Part shown: in pieces, positions 13,150 through 20,931 of the stretch
How positions within the stretch are numbered: the first letter of the stretch is position 1
Layout: each line of letters starts with the position of its first letter
Assembly (NCBI GenBank): GCA_902525565.1
Contig: CABZHY010000007.1
Location: 1-36,821, forward strand
Reading direction: 5' to 3'
DNA from: an uncultured Pelagibacteraceae bacterium
Lineage (GTDB): Bacteria > Pseudomonadota > Alphaproteobacteria > Pelagibacterales > Pelagibacteraceae
Length of the DNA stretch: 36,821 nucleotides
The notes under the pieces: model-generated
The model's database searches: none
What the model was told of the DNA's origin: nothing
Seen by the model: only the letters and a program-made list of their open reading frames with translations
Position numbers and translations under genes: made by a program

Positions 13150-14766
13150 ATGAATCATTACGAGACAAATTTAGATAAAAATAAAGCTAATTACGTACCA
13201 CTTACCCCATTAACGTTTCTTAAAAGAGCAATGGAAATTTATCCAAATTATGAAGCTATAATTTATGAAGATAGGAAATATACTTGGAATGATGTTTACA
13301 AAAGAGCTGTAAAATTTGCTAGTGCACTGTCAAAAATTGGAATTAAAAAAGGGGACACTGTCTCATTCTTAGCCTTTAATACACCAGAGATTTTCGAAGG
13401 ACATTACTCAGTACCTATGGCAGGTGCAGTATTAAATACAATTAATATAAGATTAGATGCAAATACAATTTCATATATTTTAGATCACAGTGATGCAAAG
13501 GTACTAGTAGTTGATAGACAATTACATGGAGAAGTTAAGAAAGCATTAAAAACTATAAATAAAAAAATTATAATAATTGATATAGATGATAAAAATGCTG
13601 ATCAATCGAAATTAGAAAAAATTGGCGATTTAGAATATGAAAGTTTTTTAAATACAGGTGATGAAAATTTCGATTGGCAAATGCCAGAGGATGAATGGCA
13701 AGCAATATCATTAAGCTATACATCAGGTACTACAGGAAATCCCAAAGGAGTAGTTTATCATCATAGAGGTGCATATTTAATGTCTACAGGAAGTTCGGTA
13801 GCTTGGAACATGCCAAATAGATTAAATTTTTTAACAGTGGTTCCAATGTTTCATTGTAATGGTTGGTGTTATCCATGGACAGTTCCAATGTTAAACGGAA
13901 GAACAATTTGTTTAAGAAATATTGACATAAAAAAAATTTTTGAATTAATTGATAAATATGAAGTAACTCATTTTGGCGGTGCCCCAATAGTATTAAATAT
14001 GATTACAGGAGCTCCTGAAAGTGACAAAAAAAAATTAAAACAAAAAGTTTATGTTTTGACTGCTGGAGCGCCACCACCAAGTATAATTTTCAAAAAAATG
14101 AGAGCATTAGGTTTTGAGGTTATGCATGTATACGGTTTAACGGAAACTTATGGACATGTTACTCAGTGTGCGTGGAATGATGAATGGAACAATTTCGATG
14201 AGGAAAAACAAAATGAAATTAAGGCTAGGCAAGGTGTGAGATATCCAAATACTGAAGGTGTCGTTGTTTTGGATCCAGAAACAATGAAAGAAGTTCCTAA
14301 AGATGGAAAAACAATTGGTGAAATTATGATTAGAGGGAATGTCGTAATGAAAGGTTACTTTAAAGACAAAGATGCTACTGATAAAGCCATGAAAGATGGA
14401 TGGTTTCATAGTGGTGATTTAGCTGTAATGCATCCTGATGGGTATGTAAAAATACAAGATAGATCAAAAGATATAATTATTTCTGGAGGAGAAAATATTT
14501 CTTCAATTGAAATAGAAAATACACTTTCTAAACATCCATCAGTTTCTATTGCTGCAGTTGTTGCAAAACCAGATGAAAAATGGGGAGAAGTTCCTTGTGC
14601 ATTTATTGAAATGGTTAAAGATAAGCCGGTATCAGAAAAAGAATTAATTGATTTTTGTAAAGAAACTTTAGCGGGATTTAAAGTTCCTAAAAAGGTTGTG
14701 TTCTGTGATTTGCCAAAAACTTCGACAGGAAAAATACAAAAGTTTGAATTAAGAAAACAAGTTTAG
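13150..14766 (+). CDS. dmdB: 3-methylmercaptopropionate-CoA ligase
   Basis: DmdB activates 3-methylmercaptopropionate to its CoA thioester using ATP. The 538-residue protein is an ANL-superfamily acyl-CoA synthetase: P-loop-like YTSGTTGNPKG (190-200), GLTETYG, GWFHSGDLAVMHPDGYV, and C-terminal PKTSTGKIQK with the adenylation lysine Lys528. Length and motifs are complete. Without context it could be called a medium-chain acyl-CoA ligase; its position between dmdC and dmdA makes DmdB the best call. It starts 2 bases after dmdC. Confidence 0.92.
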   Translation: MNHYETNLDKNKANYVPLTPLTFLKRAMEIYPNYEAIIYEDRKYTWNDVYKRAVKFASALSKIGIKKGDTVSFLAFNTPEIFEGHYSVPMAGAVLNTINIRLDANTISYILDHSDAKVLVVDRQLHGEVKKALKTINKKIIIIDIDDKNADQSKLEKIGDLEYESFLNTGDENFDWQMPEDEWQAISLSYTSGTTGNPKGVVYHHRGAYLMSTGSSVAWNMPNRLNFLTVVPMFHCNGWCYPWTVPMLNGRTICLRNIDIKKIFELIDKYEVTHFGGAPIVLNMITGAPESDKKKLKQKVYVLTAGAPPPSIIFKKMRALGFEVMHVYGLTETYGHVTQCAWNDEWNNFDEEKQNEIKARQGVRYPNTEGVVVLDPETMKEVPKDGKTIGEIMIRGNVVMKGYFKDKDATDKAMKDGWFHSGDLAVMHPDGYVKIQDRSKDIIISGGENISSIEIENTLSKHPSVSIAAVVAKPDEKWGEVPCAFIEMVKDKPVSEKELIDFCKETLAGFKVPKKVVFCDLPKTSTGKIQKFELRKQV

Positions 14767-14773
14767 GTAATTT

Positions 14774-15550
14774 TTGAATTTTCAATTGGAAAATAAAAAT
14801 GTTTATGCGTCCGATGCAGGACAGGGTATTGATGAAAATAAAGAAACAATAGTATTTCTTCATGGAAGTGGTCTTTCGCATATTGTTTGGTCTCTAACTG
14901 AACAGTTTTTTTCAAATAATAATTTTAACGTATTATCTATTGATTTACCTGGGCACGGTAATTCTGATGGCCCTTGCTTAGATAGTATTGAAAAAATAGC
15001 TGATTGGTTGGAGCAGGTTTTTAATAAACTTAATTTAAATAATTTAATTTTAATTGGTCATTCCCAAGGTTGCTTGGAGATACTTGAATATGCTCACAAA
15101 TATAAAAATAGATTAAAAAAGTTAGTTTTTATCGGAGGGTCAAATAAGATGCCAGTTCATCCAGATTTAATTGATCTAGCAAAAAATGGGGACTCCGATG
15201 CTGTTAAATTAATGATGAAGTGGGGTTATGAAGGTTCAAAAAGATTTATTGGTGGTAACCCAGTAGAAAAAATAATACAATCACCTCGAGACATAAGAGA
15301 CATACTGGCGGTGGACCTTGTTGCATGTAACAATTACAAAAATGGTTCTGATGCTGCTAAATTAATAGAATTTCCATCAATGTTTATTTTTGGTTCTCTA
15401 GATAAGATGGTAAATCTAGAAGCTGGAAAAAAATTTTCTAGTCTAATTAACAACTCATCTACACACATAATCGACGGTTGTGGCCATATGATTATGATTG
15501 AAAAAGCATTTGAAATGAGAGACAAAGTTTTAGAATTTTTGAAAAAATGA
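14774..15550 (+). CDS. Alpha/beta hydrolase embedded in the DMSP demethylation operon
   Basis: The 258-residue protein is a complete soluble alpha/beta hydrolase: oxyanion motif FLHGSGLSH, nucleophile elbow GHSQG with Ser97, acid in FGSLDKMV, and the histidine in DGCGHMI. It has no signal peptide, so it should act in the cytoplasm. The start is a TTG at 14774, 7 bases after dmdB; I see no suitable ATG nearby. Its end overlaps dmdA by 4 bases (ATGA), which ties its translation to DMSP demethylase. Substrate is unknown; a thioester or ester in the methylmercaptopropionate route is inference. No dmdD or acuH-like hydratase is in the window. Confidence 0.9.
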
Positions 15551-16656
15551 AGAACTTTTTAATTGCGAAATCAAGAAGACTTAGAGGTACGCCATATACT
15601 TCTCGAATTGAGGAACAGGGTGTTACAGCTTATACAATTTATAATCATATGTTGCTTCCAGCTGCCTTTGGTTCAATTGAAGATTCTTATCATCATTTAA
15701 AAGAGCATGTTCAAATTTGGGATGTAGCAGCTGAAAGACAGGTAGAAATCTCAGGAAAAGATTCTGCAAAATTAGTTCAGCTAATGACTTGTAGAGATTT
15801 ATCAAAATCTAAAGATGGAAGATGTTATTATTGTCCGATTATAGATGATAATGCTGGATTAATTAATGATCCAGTTGTTTTAAGAATTAATGAAAATAAA
15901 TGGTGGATTTCTATTGCAGATACGGACGTAATATTATTTGCAAAAGGATTAGCAATTGGAAATAAATTTGATGTTAAAATCATAGAGCCAAAAGTTGATA
16001 TCATGGCTGTACAAGGTCCAAAATCATTTCAATTGATGGAAAAAGTATTTGGAGAACAGATCACAAAATTAAAATTTTTTGGTTTTGATTATTTTGAATT
16101 TGGAGGTGCAAAACACCTCATCGCACAATCTGGATGGTCTAAACAAGGAGGTTATGAATTATATGTTCAAAATACTGAAGCAGGCTTAAAACTATATGAT
16201 CATTTATTTGAAATTGGAAAAGAATTTAATATTAAACCAGGGTGCCCTAATTTAATAGAACGAATCGAAAGTGGACTGTTATCTCATGGCAATGATATGG
16301 ATAACGGAGATAATCCTTATGAATGTGGATTTGATAAATATGTTAACATAGATAGTGATATTATTTTTTTAGGAAAAGAAAAATTAAAGAAAATAAAATC
16401 TGAAGGTATAAAAAGAAAATTAATGGGTGTGAAGTTAGATTTGGACAAAATAAGTTTAACAGGATCTTTAGATCTGACTGATGATAATAACAAAATCATT
16501 GGGGAATTAAGGTCAGCCTGTTATTCGCCTCATTTTAAAAAAGTAATTGGTATTGCTATGATGAAAAAATCGCATTGGAATATAGACCAGAACGTAAAAG
16601 CAAGCATAAATGGTGATATTTGCAGTGGTAAAGTTTGCGATTTACCTTTTATTTAG
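15547..16656 (+). CDS. dmdA: Dimethylsulfoniopropionate demethylase
   Basis: DmdA transfers a methyl group from DMSP to tetrahydrofolate, giving 3-methylmercaptopropionate and 5-methyl-THF; it is the committed step of DMSP assimilation in marine bacteria. The 369-residue protein matches the length of the SAR11 enzyme. It is a GcvT-family protein, with an aminomethyltransferase-like fold (about 1-265) and a GcvT C-terminal barrel (about 270-369). Recognisable segments include [39 protein letters not shown] and [15 protein letters not shown]. The [10 protein letters not shown] opening and DVAAERQVE separate DmdA from glycine-cleavage GcvT. The ATG overlaps the upstream hydrolase stop by 4 bases. 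Confidence 0.97.
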
Positions 16657-16671
16657 TATAACAACTTTAAA

Positions 16672-17667
16672 ATGAACATAGCTATAGTAGGTGCAACAGG
16701 AAATGTTGGAAGGAAAACTCTTGAGGTATTTGATAAAAAAAACTTCAAGTTTAATAATCTATATTTAGTTGCCTCAGAAAAAAGTGCAGGAAAAAAAATC
16801 TCTTTTAGAGATAAAGAGTATGTTATTGAAAATTTAGAGACATATGATTTTTCAAAAGCAGATATAACTTTTTTTGCAGCAGGAGGAAAAATTGCTGAAA
16901 AATTTGCAGAAAAGGCTGCCAAGCACACAATTGTAATAGATAATTCAAGTTTTTTTAGGATGGATCCTGATGTTCCATTGATCGTTCCACAAGTGAATGC
17001 AGCCGAAATTAAAAATATGAAAAAAAATATTATTGCCAATCCAAATTGTTCTACAGCACAACTTGTTATAGCACTTAAACCACTACATAATTTATTTAAA
17101 ATTAAAAGAGTTGTAGTTTCAACTTACCAATCTGTTTCAGGTGGTGGTAAAAGTCCAATGGACGAATTGATTGATCAAACTAAACAATATTTAGATGGAA
17201 AAAAAATAGAGTCAAAAAATTTTACTAAACAAATCGCTTTTAATGTTATTCCACATATCGATGTTTTTGCTGATGATGGATATACAAAAGAAGAATTAAA
17301 AATGACATATGAAACAAAAAAAATCTTAGACGAGTCAATTGAACTTACAGCTACATGTGTAAGAATTCCTGTTTTAGTATCTCATTCGGAGTCTGTAAAT
17401 ATAGAATTTGAAAAACCATATACTTTAGAAAAAGTGAGAGATGTTTTAAGTAAAGCAGATGGTTGTCAGGTTATTGATAAAAGAGAAAATGGAGGTTATA
17501 GCACACCATTTGAAGCAGCTGGGAGTGATGAGACATATATATCTAGAATTAGGGATGACAAAACTAAAAAAAATTCGTTAAATTTGTGGATTGTATCAGA
17601 TAATCTATTGAGAGGTGCTGCACTTAATTCTGTTGAAATTGCTGAAACAATTATTAATTCAAAATAA
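16672..17667 (+). CDS. asd: Aspartate-semialdehyde dehydrogenase
   Basis: Asd reduces aspartyl phosphate to aspartate semialdehyde with NADPH, the branch point to lysine/diaminopimelate, threonine and methionine. The 331-residue protein has the nucleotide-binding GATGNVGRKTLEV start, catalytic Cys126 in NPNCSTAQL, SVSGGGKSPMDEL, and His238 in RIPVLVSHSESV. Length is normal. It lies 15 bases after dmdA and 3 bases before sdhC. The placement next to dmdA is suggestive, because homoserine made through Asd is the acceptor for methanethiol-derived sulfur in methionine synthesis; that link is inference. Confidence 0.97.
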   Translation: MNIAIVGATGNVGRKTLEVFDKKNFKFNNLYLVASEKSAGKKISFRDKEYVIENLETYDFSKADITFFAAGGKIAEKFAEKAAKHTIVIDNSSFFRMDPDVPLIVPQVNAAEIKNMKKNIIANPNCSTAQLVIALKPLHNLFKIKRVVVSTYQSVSGGGKSPMDELIDQTKQYLDGKKIESKNFTKQIAFNVIPHIDVFADDGYTKEELKMTYETKKILDESIELTATCVRIPVLVSHSESVNIEFEKPYTLEKVRDVLSKADGCQVIDKRENGGYSTPFEAAGSDETYISRIRDDKTKKNSLNLWIVSDNLLRGAALNSVEIAETIINSK

Positions 17668-17670
17668 AAT

Positions 17671-18051
17671 ATGGAAAACAGACCTTTATCACCACACATA
17701 CAGATTTATAAATGGCATATTTCTTCATTAGTATCTATTTCACACAGAATTACAGGTATAATTAATTTTTTTGCAATCACATTAATTTGTATTTGGTTTG
17801 CATTAATGATTCTAGGAGAAAGTAATTATCAAATTATTAAAAATTTTTTAGAAACTTTTTTAGGTAAATTTATTTTAATTGGAATAACCTGGTCATTTAG
17901 TTTTCAAATGTTAAGTGAAGTAAGACACTTGATTATGGATTTAGGTTATGGATTTGAATTACAAACAACAAAAATTACAGGTTTGGTAGTTATTTTTGGT
18001 TCGATTATTCTGACTATCCTAATTTATTTAATTGGCAGAGGATTAATATAA
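17671..18051 (+). CDS. sdhC: Succinate dehydrogenase cytochrome b556-type subunit, heme-ligand residue replaced
   Basis: SdhC is a membrane anchor of complex II. The 126-residue protein has RPLSPHIQIYKWH at the N-terminus, the quinone-site motif SISHRITG (the Ser and Arg equal to E. coli Ser27 and Arg31) and three membrane helices. RHLIMDLGY (Arg85, His86, Asp90) aligns with E. coli RHMMMDFGY. The heme b ligand, E. coli His84, lies six residues before that Arg; here the position is Gln79 (FSFQMLSEVRH). The first gene of sdhCDAB, it ends on TAATG shared with sdhD. Confidence 0.95.
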   Translation: MENRPLSPHIQIYKWHISSLVSISHRITGIINFFAITLICIWFALMILGESNYQIIKNFLETFLGKFILIGITWSFSFQMLSEVRHLIMDLGYGFELQTTKITGLVVIFGSIILTILIYLIGRGLI

Positions 18052-18380
18052 TGCTGCCAGTAACAAAAAAATGGTTATTCTTGAAAATTAGTTCTGCAAT
18101 CTTATTACCTTTAATGCTTTGGTTTATTATAAACTTAGTGAATATTTATGATAAAAGTTATTTGGAAATAATGAATTTTTTAACAACACAACCATCTAAA
18201 TTCTTAATTGGGTTATTTTTAGTTATTGCTTATTTTTTTTCAGCTTTAACTATAAGTGAGGTTTTTGAAGACTATATTAACGATAAAAAAATCAAAAATG
18301 CCGCAAACAAAGTCCTAAATTTTTTTGCTATAACAATCCCAATAATTACAATAATTGTAATTTTAAACTTAAATACATGA
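18051..18380 (+). CDS. sdhD: Succinate dehydrogenase hydrophobic anchor subunit, without any histidine
   Basis: The 109-residue protein has three membrane helices and the family Asp-Tyr pair (Asp74-Tyr75 in VFEDYI), equal to E. coli Asp82-Tyr83 at the quinone site. E. coli His71, the second heme b ligand, lies 12 residues before that Tyr; here the position is Phe63 ([15 protein letters not shown]). There is no histidine anywhere in the protein. Identity rests on position between sdhC and sdhA, topology and the DY motif. It overlaps sdhC by one base and sdhA by four (ATGA). Confidence 0.92.
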
Positions 18381-20152
18381 AAGCATATAATATTATAGAC
18401 CATGAGTACGATGTTGTTGTACTTGGAGCAGGTGGATCAGGTTTGAGAGCGGCAGTAGGGCTTAGCGAAGCTGGCTTAAAAACAGCTTGTATCTCAAAAG
18501 TATTTCCAACCAGAAGCCATACATCTGCTGCGCAAGGTGGAATATCAGCAGCACTTGGAAACATGGGAGAAGATGATTGGAGATGGCACATGTATGACAC
18601 TGTCAAAGGTGCAGATTGGTTAGGTGATCAAGATAGTATTGAATATCTATGTAAAGAAGCACCTAAAGCAGTTTTAGAATTAGAGAAATACGGAGTTCCA
18701 TTTAGTAGAACTGAAGAGGGAAAAATTTATCAAAGACCATTTGGTGGAATGACGAAAAATTATGGGAACGGAATAGTTCAAAGAACTTGTGCAGCAGCCG
18801 ATAGAACAGGACATGCTATTTTACACACATTATATGGACAAGCGTTAAAGCATAATACAGAATTTTTTATAGAATATTTTGCATTAGATTTGTTAATGAA
18901 GAATGGAGAATGCAAAGGTCTAATTGCTTGGAATTTGAATGATGGAACAATTCATAGATTTAGAGCACATTCAGTAATTATTGCTACAGGTGGTTATGGA
19001 AAAGTTTATTATTCAGCAACATCAGCACATACTTGCACTGGTGATGGTAATGCAATGGTTTTAAGAGCTGGATTGCCGCTTCAGGATATGGAGTTTGTTC
19101 AATTTCACCCAACAGGAATTTATGGCCACGGTACCTTAATAACAGAAGGTGCGCGAGGAGAAGGGGGTTATCTTACAAATTCTAAAGGTGAAAGATTTAT
19201 GGAAAGGTATGCTCCAAATGCAAAAGATTTAGCATCAAGAGATGTTGTTAGCAGATCAATGTCTATAGAGATTAATGAGGGAAGAGGTGTTGGAAAAGAT
19301 CAAGATCATGTTCATTTGAACCTAAGTCACTTAGATAAAGATATTATTGAAAGCAGGCTTCCTGGAATTACTGATGCAGCAAGATTATTTGCAAATGTAG
19401 ATGTAACTAAAGAACCAATTCCTGTTGTACCAACAGTTCATTATAATATGGGTGGTATTCCAACAAACTATAAAGCAGAAGTATTAACTGTAAATGGCTC
19501 AGAAAAAACTGTTCCAGGTTTAATGGCTATAGGAGAAGCGGCATGTGTCTCTGTTCACGGAGCAAATAGACTTGGTTCTAATTCTTTAATTGATTTAGTA
19601 GTATTTGGAAGAGCAGCAGCAAAAAGAGCAGCTGAGTTAGTTAAGCCAGGAACACCTCATGAAGAAATTCCTGAGTCAGAAACACAAAAATGTTTAGATA
19701 GATTTGATAAACTTAGAAATGCACAAGGAAATAATAGTACTGCAGAACTTAGACTTTCAATGCAAAAAACTATGCAGTCGAAATGTGCAGTTTTTAGAAC
19801 AGAAAAAAATCTTAAAGCAGGTGTTGATGAGATTAAAAAAACTTATGATGGTATGGACTCAATTTCAGTTAAAGATAGGTCTTTAGTATTTAATACTGAT
19901 TTAGTTGAAACATTAGAATTTGATAATTTAATAAGACAAGCAGTAACTACTGTAGAGTCTGCATATCATAGAAAAGAGAGCAGAGGTGCTCACGCGAGAG
20001 ATGACTATCCAAAAAGAGATGACGAAAAATTTATGCAACATACTCTTGCTTGGTGTGATGGAAAAAATACAAAGATTAGTTACAGAGCAGTACACAAATC
20101 AACTTTAACAAATGAAGTTCAATATTTTCCACCACAAGAGCGAGTATATTAA
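18377..20152 (+). CDS. sdhA: Succinate dehydrogenase flavoprotein subunit
   Basis: SdhA oxidises succinate to fumarate at covalently bound FAD on the cytoplasmic face of complex II. The 591-residue protein has [16 protein letters not shown] for FAD binding, [10 protein letters not shown] with His48 as the likely covalent FAD attachment site, [23 protein letters not shown] split across the active site, [10 protein letters not shown] and the C-terminal [16 protein letters not shown]. All expected catalytic regions are present and the length is normal. It overlaps sdhD by 4 bases and sdhB by 1, so the four subunits should be made together. Confidence 0.98.
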
Positions 20153-20931
20153 TGGTTCAGCTAAGTTTACCTAAAAATTCAGAGGTTAAAAAAGGCAAAT
20201 ATTTTAAAGACAAAACTGGATCTAAAAATTTAAGAAAAGTAAATATTTATAGATGGGATCCATCGACAGAAGAAAATCCTAGAATTGATACATACGAAGT
20301 TGATATGGATAATTGTCCATCTAAGGTGCTGGATATTCTGAATAAAATTAAAAACGAAATTGATCCTACATTGGCCTATAGAAGATCTTGTGCTCATGGT
20401 GTTTGTGGTTCTTGTGCTATGAATATGGGAGGAAAAAACGGACTTGCTTGTACAACTCCTCATGCAGAGATAGACGGTGACATCGATATTTATCCTCTAC
20501 CTCATTTAAAAGTTAAAAGAGATTTGATTGGTGATTTAGATGGCTTATATAAACAATATCAATCTATTGAACCTTGGTTAAAAAATAACTCAACAAAACA
20601 GACAACAGAAATTTATCAGTCTAAAGAAGATAGAGCAAAACTTGATGGTGCTTACGAATGCATTATGTGTGCTTGCTGCTCTACATCTTGCCCAAGTTAT
20701 TGGTGGAATGGAGATAAATATTTAGGTCCAGCAGTTCTGCTACAGGCTTATAGATGGATTATTGATAGTAGAGATGAAGAGAGAAAAGCTAGATTAAAAA
20801 AAGTTTCAGATGAATTAAAATTATATAGATGCCATACAATATTAAATTGTACAAATGCATGTCCTAAGGGCTTGAATCCAGCAAAAGCTATAGCTGAAAT
20901 AAAAAAAATGTTAGCAACAGCTAATGTTTAA
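20152..20931 (+). CDS. sdhB: Succinate dehydrogenase iron-sulfur subunit
   Basis: SdhB carries electrons from FAD to quinone through three Fe-S clusters. The 259-residue protein shows the [2Fe-2S] ligands [15 protein letters not shown] plus a later Cys in GLACTT, and the [4Fe-4S]/[3Fe-4S] motifs [13 protein letters not shown] and [14 protein letters not shown]. The quinone-site Trp in YWWNGDKY and His in YRCHTILNC (equal to E. coli Trp164 and His207) are kept, which matters because the heme ligands in SdhC and SdhD are not. It is the last sdh gene; mmsA follows after 39 bases. Confidence 0.98.

Follow-up and report, generated by a model that had tools for sequence, protein, structure and literature searches.

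The stretch of DNA analyzed here, hereafter the window, covers 36,821 nucleotides of contig CABZHY010000007.1 and belongs to the genome of an uncultured Pelagibacteraceae bacterium, which is spread over 53 contigs and is 71% complete. The window carries sdhCDAB as four intact, adjacent genes that form one compact operon on the plus strand, in which the stop of sdhC and the start of sdhD overlap by one base. All four Sdh proteins score above the curated cut-off of NCBIfam models:

17671..18051, + strand: sdhC, membrane anchor and former cytochrome b556 subunit, 126 aa (TIGR02970, 128.8 bits, cut-off 52.3; AlphaFold pLDDT 85.4)
18051..18380, + strand: sdhD, second membrane anchor, 109 aa (TIGR02968, 48.5 bits, cut-off 41.8; AlphaFold pLDDT 88.7)
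18377..20152, + strand: sdhA, flavoprotein, 591 aa (TIGR01816, 960.8 bits, cut-off 727.35)
20152..20931, + strand: sdhB, iron-sulfur subunit, 259 aa (PRK05950, 355.9 bits, cut-off 228; alignment with avian and porcine SdhB)

The operon is preceded by an aspartate-semialdehyde dehydrogenase gene (16672-17667) and followed by genes for methylmalonate-semialdehyde dehydrogenase and then malate dehydrogenase. In the region 13150-16656, a dimethylsulfoniopropionate demethylase (579 bits, cut-off 410) was also observed near an acyl-CoA synthetase gene and, by eye, a hydrolase-like frame. Since dmdA is described as absent from IIIa and LD12 genomes (excerpt of PMC10030771), the demethylase would be in keeping with subclade I/II. 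The AlphaFold models of SdhC and SdhD are helical and give two three-helix membrane anchors, which is the architecture of type C complex II.

The His of avian SDHC and the E. coli residues SdhC His84 and SdhD His71 are established heme ligands. The corresponding positions in the window are occupied as follows:

17905..17907, + strand: codon CAA of SdhC Gln79, heme ligand column (E. coli His84), six residues before Arg85
18237..18239, + strand: codon TTT of SdhD Phe63, second heme ligand column (E. coli His71), twelve residues before Tyr75

The SdhC sequence around Gln79 reads FSFQMLSEVRHLIMDLGY, and in a profile of 16 SdhC relatives the Gln79 column falls on the avian SDHC His within YHTWNGIRHLVWD. 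Likewise, a profile of 16 SdhD relatives aligns with E. coli SdhD without gaps and places the ligand column on the His of LIHAWIGMWQVLTDY. The SdhD model gave a third line of evidence, as its residues 3-107 superpose on residues 11-115 of E. coli SdhD (105 residues aligned, Z 12.2, rmsd 2.1) with a constant offset of 8, which equates Phe63 with His71, Lys12 with Arg20, Thr67 with Gly75, and Tyr75 with Tyr83. The superposition of the SdhC model on E. coli SdhC (Z 12.1, 121 aligned) was not used for the register because its rmsd is 5.8 and its ends are shifted by 7 and 6, where the sequences are shifted by 5. A Mycobacterium smegmatis Sdh2 chain was a tied structural match at Z 13.1, and it should be noted that for helical bundles Z values of this size carry little weight by themselves, as unrelated rows reach about 8-9. 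A misalignment was considered and rejected, as the SdhC profile, the SdhD profile, and the SdhD structure agree and the ligand helices align gap-free. The codons, the profiles, and the SdhD model thus bear out the initial annotation, which had placed Gln79 and Phe63 at the two heme ligand columns. Its further statement that SdhD has no histidine is correct for the window, where SdhD contains zero His and zero Cys and SdhC a single Cys, but does not extend to some relatives (L009 and L028-L031), which have one His elsewhere in the protein.

The two columns were then read across relatives. Among 201 distinct SdhC/SdhD pairs, 87 were without both His, 43 lacked the SdhD His only, 11 lacked the SdhC His only, and 60 kept both (the both-lost pairs number 87 or 88, by slightly different counting rules). 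Written as SdhC/SdhD, the states were Gln/Phe (72), Gln/Tyr (14), Gln/Asn (1), His/Phe (42), His/Asn (1), His/His (60), Tyr/His (10), and Asn/His (1). SdhC Gln paired with SdhD His was found in 0 of the 201; in the sampled pairs SdhC Gln always accompanies a lost SdhD His, and SdhC Tyr or Asn always a retained one. Within the window's genus, all 29 pairs read, the window included, have Gln together with Phe (21) or Tyr (8). Among 300 genomes from this genus, many of them incomplete, 216 carried a DNA pattern for F-Q-x-x-x-E-x-R-H, as did 37 of the 44 that are fairly complete and clean. A reversed control pattern matched about 48 of the 300 genomes (counted by eye) and some matches to the Gln pattern were unlike SdhC, so that a share of the Gln-pattern matches is due to chance. 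The His version of the pattern, which demands an Asn three residues past the His and would let a His with Ser there escape, appeared in 2 of the 300 genomes and in neither case in an open frame of at least 40 codons. The single-contig genomes L244 (1,308,759 bases), L238 (1,456,888 bases), and L239 (1,343,202 bases) are all Gln/Phe, as is the named record HTCC9565 (L179).

Other genera of the family show different states. Three of them keep both His, namely g5 (L093/L094), g7 (L095-L098), and g6 (L033/L034). The genus g8, which includes HIMB058 (L183 and L099, identical in SdhA and SdhB), presumably a member of subclade II, combines SdhC His with SdhD Phe in 8/8 loci. Genus g9 is mixed, with His/Phe in L107 and Gln/Phe in L125 and L126. 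A loss ascribed to SAR11 in general needs narrowing, as both ligands persist in three genera of this family and a fourth has lost only that of SdhD. The initial annotation had also held that His in close relatives would point to a sequencing artefact, which is not the case here: the His of sister genera belongs to a graded series and Gln recurs in many independent genomes, among them single-contig ones. A further set of 80 named Pelagibacteraceae loci, the best 80 among 569 loci matched by a query taken from the intermediate genus and not a random draw, gave a readable SdhC in 79 (L197 being the exception) and a readable SdhD in all but two of these. They were His/Phe in 40, Gln/Phe in 29, Gln/Tyr in 6, Gln/Asn in 1, and His/Asn in 1, and the remaining two, read for SdhC only, had one His and one Gln. 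Asn at the SdhD ligand column was seen in two SAR11 loci, L175 and L207 (His/Asn in AG-914-D21 and Gln/Asn in MED-G107).

An order-wide search matched 218 genomes, and the ligand columns were read in part of them. Three of the four genera read in the sister family f2 have lost the opposite ligand and combine SdhC Tyr or Asn with a retained SdhD His (L109-L112); the fourth, g3, keeps both. SdhC Tyr or Asn with a kept SdhD His was also observed in L129, L130, L134, L136, and L137, and SdhC Tyr or Asn in L141, which was read for SdhC only. The Alphaproteobacteria with this opposite, one-sided loss have genome sizes between about 0.9 and 2 Mb. Beyond the family, class genomes carry SdhC His in 50/56 and Tyr in 6/56, and SdhD His in 52/52, in a sample of 56 of 310 matching genomes that comprised the 30 loci with the best scores and 26 of 27 picked for low scores (the other was truncated); SdhD was read in 52 of the 56, and rarer losses elsewhere could be missed. 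In the pairs read, both ligands are gone throughout the window's genus, and loss of the SdhD ligand is confined, in this sample, to one clade.

The order of the losses was read from a tree of SdhA and SdhB (110 rows, 850 columns, LG+G4, quick search), from which SdhC and SdhD were left out. On this tree the SdhD column changes between His and not-His once, at a clade of 88 rows (SH-aLRT 100) that adjoins the family's seven His/His rows (SH-aLRT 96). Inside the 88-row clade, the SdhC column changes between His and Gln five times in the simplest account, and at least three of these changes are forced by well supported branches. The tree itself counts changes and not their direction, and we read them as losses because the outgroups are His/His. 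Several early branches of the window's both-lost clade have Tyr at the SdhD column, and a path from His through Tyr to Phe would fit these branches, though it is unproven.

The residues around the former ligands were compared in the same pairs. Three positions are relevant:

17917..17919, + strand: codon GAA of SdhC Glu83, at the position of a conserved glycine (Gly88 in E. coli), putative substitute for a heme propionate
18249..18251, + strand: codon of SdhD Thr67, at the position of the other conserved glycine (Gly75 in E. coli)
18084..18086, + strand: codon of SdhD Lys12, at E. coli Arg20, proposed partner of SdhC Glu83

His/His pairs have a glycine four residues past each ligand (SdhC Gly in 58/60 and SdhD Gly in 56/60). 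SdhC Glu83, by comparison, is present in all 131 distinct pairs that lost the SdhD ligand, and in the same 131 the SdhD position is never Gly, being Thr, Ser, Asn, or in one case Ala. On the tree, the SdhC Glu is found in 88/88 lost rows and in 1/22 others (L234). Both replacements are already complete in the His/Phe clade, with SdhC Glu83 in 43/43 and the SdhD glycine gone in 43/43. SdhD position 12 is Lys in 127/131 lost pairs and, among His/His pairs, Arg in 48/60, Lys in 11/60, and His in 1/60; because of these 11, Lys12 is not specific to the lost clade. A few more positions differ between the groups. SdhD Met22 is newly conserved (85/88 both-lost and 40/43 His/Phe pairs, with Leu in 8/8 of the family's His/His rows), whereas SdhC Cys40 (79/88 and 42/43) also occurs in 4/8 of those rows. 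The His/Phe clade has SdhC Cys73 in 41/43 and, at the N-terminus, SdhD His2 in 42/43. At SdhC position 16 (17716-17718), where helix 1 starts, His was gained in 82/88 both-lost pairs, the family's His/His rows having Gln in 8/8. At SdhC position 119 (18025-18027), in the last helix, Trp stands in 49/60 His/His pairs and Tyr in 73/88 both-lost and 40/43 His/Phe pairs, a difference that is possibly part of the same remodelling.

The catalytic parts of the enzyme are retained. In the anchors, these include:

17734..17748, + strand: SdhC Ser22-Arg26, including His25, retained residues of the quinone site and the heme side (E. coli Ser27, His30, Arg31)
18270..18275, + strand: SdhD Asp74-Tyr75, kept quinone-site residues (E. 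coli Asp82-Tyr83)

SdhC Ser22 and Arg26 and SdhD Asp74 and Tyr75 are kept in 98-100% of rows per group, near-copies included. The SdhB cysteines and RCH motif align with those of mitochondrial SdhB, which suggests that the catalytic subunits hold the usual FAD and three clusters, and the earlier observation that quinone-site and Fe-S residues were kept is confirmed. A heme-free E. coli variant is described as having significant activity and supporting growth on succinate (excerpt of PMC3290573). As that variant is active, and as the window enzyme keeps both its quinone-site residues and its SdhB ligands, electrons from succinate would pass from FAD through the three Fe-S clusters of SdhB to ubiquinone at the SdhB/SdhC/SdhD site, with no need for heme.

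Taken together, these sequence data make it likely that SAR11 subclade I has a four-subunit, type C-derived succinate:quinone oxidoreductase that works without heme b. The naturally heme-free complex II proposed in the initial annotation is well supported by the genus-wide ligand loss, the loss of the glycines, and a mirrored arrangement in yeast; alternative ligands, discussed below, keep it short of certainty. The substitutions took the following course. In the ancestor of the large marine clade, the SdhD ligand His was replaced, giving what is now Phe, Tyr, or rarely Asn. Coextensive with this loss, the heme-packing glycine of SdhC became Glu and that of SdhD Thr or Ser. Later, the stranded SdhC His gave way to Gln repeatedly, and one of these changes lies at the base of the window's clade. 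Aromatic and other side chains may close the space of the ring, and a pair formed by SdhC Glu83 and SdhD Lys12 may take over the site of the former heme propionate. In E. coli, SdhD Arg20 is described as contacting the propionate together with SdhC His91 and SdhB His207, and SdhD Arg20 and SdhC Arg31 as equivalent across the pseudo-twofold axis (excerpts of PMC3290573). In yeast complex II, excerpts of PMC13066397 describe a Tyr that replaces the ligand His of Sdh4, with the Sdh3 His retained, no heme by cryo-EM, and an Sdh4 Glu112 at the former glycine that pairs with Sdh3 Arg97 in the propionate's place. As the SAR11 Glu lies at the pseudo-symmetric SdhC glycine, whose partner would be SdhD Lys12, we propose a mirror image of the yeast solution; the Glu83-Lys12 contact as a propionate replacement is suggested by this analogy.

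Two alternatives retain some weight, though we hold neither to be likely. According to the first, only the both-lost clades would be heme-free, and the His/Phe clade would still bind heme through its one His, with several losses of heme each accompanying a change from His to Gln. The SdhC His does outlast the SdhD ligand across a large clade (43 distinct pairs), and in E. coli heme can reportedly be kept when one axial ligand is mutated, to go by the title of a 2001 paper, so that heme loss is less sure in the His/Phe clade than in the Gln/Phe clade. However, Glu83 and the loss of the SdhD glycine are already universal among those 43 pairs, and yeast, with His/Tyr at the ligand positions, has no heme according to the excerpted cryo-EM report (PMC13066397). 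The second alternative concerns the content of the pocket, which could be a phospholipid or cardiolipin instead of heme; the complex would still be heme-free, and this would be compatible with the main reading. Precedents come from Tetrahymena complex II, where cardiolipin is reported at the place of heme b (excerpt of PMC10227065), and from yeast complex II, where a conserved phospholipid is described as buried deeper (excerpt of PMC13066397). In the window, Phe63 and Glu83 would occupy part of the space, which makes a lipid at this place somewhat doubtful.

An improbable alternative is that heme b is still bound, through other ligands such as SdhC His25 or His86 or SdhD Met22, or through packing and the propionates. 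SdhC His25 and His86 are conserved in 84/88 and 88/88 distinct both-lost pairs, Met22 and SdhC His16 are nearly as constant there (as noted, 85/88 and 82/88), and Met22 contrasts with the Leu of the family's His/His rows. The reported retention of heme in single-ligand E. coli mutants could be read in the same direction, and structures of the His84Met and His71Met mutants exist (2wu2 and 2wu5). On the other hand, the conservation of His25 and His86 is much the same in ligated relatives, both residues have a role on the quinone side as well, and their E. coli counterparts are described as touching a pyrrole ring and a propionate, not the iron (excerpt of PMC3290573). Both pocket glycines are now larger or charged residues, the window SdhD offers no His or Cys, and from helix spacing the newly conserved residues that could in principle ligate heme (SdhD Met22, SdhC His16 and Cys40, and in the His/Phe clade SdhC Cys73 and SdhD His2) would lie off the iron. 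That the substitutions are artefacts of annotation, assembly, or alignment, as the fragmentary genome of the window might suggest, can be dismissed, since the same states occur in the single-contig genomes L236-L239 and L244 and in many independent assemblies, and the alignment runs without gaps across the ligand helices.

A general loss of heme was also rejected as an account of these substitutions. Of 41 relatives, 33 have a ferrochelatase (within the window's genus, 18 of 25), which did not turn up in the incomplete genome of the window itself, and 37 have a member of the cytochrome b family, among them the window's genome. As most relatives searched retain both, heme is still made and used, and the loss of heme from complex II would be local.

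The proposed heme-free complex II can be placed in the context of habitat and iron. Subclade IIIa is described as brackish and LD12 as freshwater (excerpts of PMC10030771 and PMC6018831), and the clade that lost the SdhD ligand is marine, as far as strain names tell. Brackish and freshwater lineages thus kept the ligands and marine ones lost them, a single transition across which many other traits differ too. Iron saving would be a plausible cause of the proposed heme loss, with this one transition behind it. Heme accounts for one of the ten iron atoms of the enzyme. Extending the proposal to subclades I and II, we tentatively suggest, with rather less confidence than for subclade I, a heme-free complex II of single origin that mirrors the yeast enzyme, in which the leftover SdhC His became Gln three to five times and which may spare that one iron atom. 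The role of the complex II heme is still debated (excerpts of PMC3290573 and PMC13066397). Free-living bacteria appear to have dropped it, and the states before, between, and after are alive in related, partly cultured strains; this ligand series is a natural set for probing what heme contributes to stability, semiquinone handling, and ROS. Since SAR11 are among the commonest bacteria of the sea, the ligand loss also bears on their iron demand.

Among known enzymes, the closest in descent are the type C complexes, E. coli SdhCDAB and mitochondrial complex II. The SAR11 enzyme shares with them the four subunits, the two three-helix anchors of the SdhC and SdhD families, the quinone-site residues, and the Fe-S ligands. 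It differs in that both pocket glycines are replaced and in that neither anchor of the window enzyme supplies the His ligand by which type C holds its one heme b, Gln79 and Phe63 standing at these positions. Type D fumarate reductase (E. coli FrdABCD) is described as having two anchors and no heme (excerpt of PMC10238741); its anchors are of different families. The window SdhC scores 17.9 bits with Fumarate_red_D (cut-off 25) versus 100.2 with Sdh_cyt, and no Frd model appeared among the family-model matches of the window SdhD, so the pair is not of the FrdC/FrdD kind. Type F likewise lacks heme, and the Cys/His ligands of its Rieske-type anchor have no counterpart in the window, where SdhD is devoid of both residues and SdhC has its single Cys. 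The Rieske cluster of type F is described for mycobacterial Sdh1 (excerpt of PMC10238741).

Heme-free complex II has precedents. An engineered heme b-less E. coli Sdh (Tran 2007) is reported to work, with heme needed for stability of the isolated enzyme (excerpt of PMC3290573); that enzyme was made in the laboratory, whereas the SAR11 case is natural and its pocket is remodelled. Tetrahymena thermophila complex II is respiratory and described as lacking heme b (excerpt of PMC10227065), a likeness that for SAR11 depends on the predicted absence of heme. It differs in having strongly divergent anchors, many extra subunits, and the cardiolipin mentioned above, and its authors consider it most likely type D (same source). 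Heme-free complex II is also described in yeast and Perkinsus (excerpt of PMC13066397), and among the open-licence literature matches listed, no earlier report of a natural bacterial relative of type C with lost ligands was found; excerpts of PMC8879329 and PMC4013037 contained no statement about the heme of complex II. The best parallel is that of Saccharomyces cerevisiae. In both, the SdhD ligand His has become aromatic (Tyr in yeast; Phe or Tyr in SAR11) and a glycine of the former heme pocket has become Glu, a combination seen in the window as Phe63 and Glu83, and yeast and the HIMB058 genus alike retain the SdhC His. The differences are that the Glu lies in Sdh4 in yeast and in SdhC in SAR11, at pseudo-symmetric positions, that SAR11 is bacterial, and that the window's genus has also lost the SdhC His. 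The window enzyme is type C by descent and architecture and departs from type C in its heme ligands. This would lend weight to the subdivision of type C for which the authors of the yeast study argue (excerpt of PMC13066397) and would add bacteria to it.
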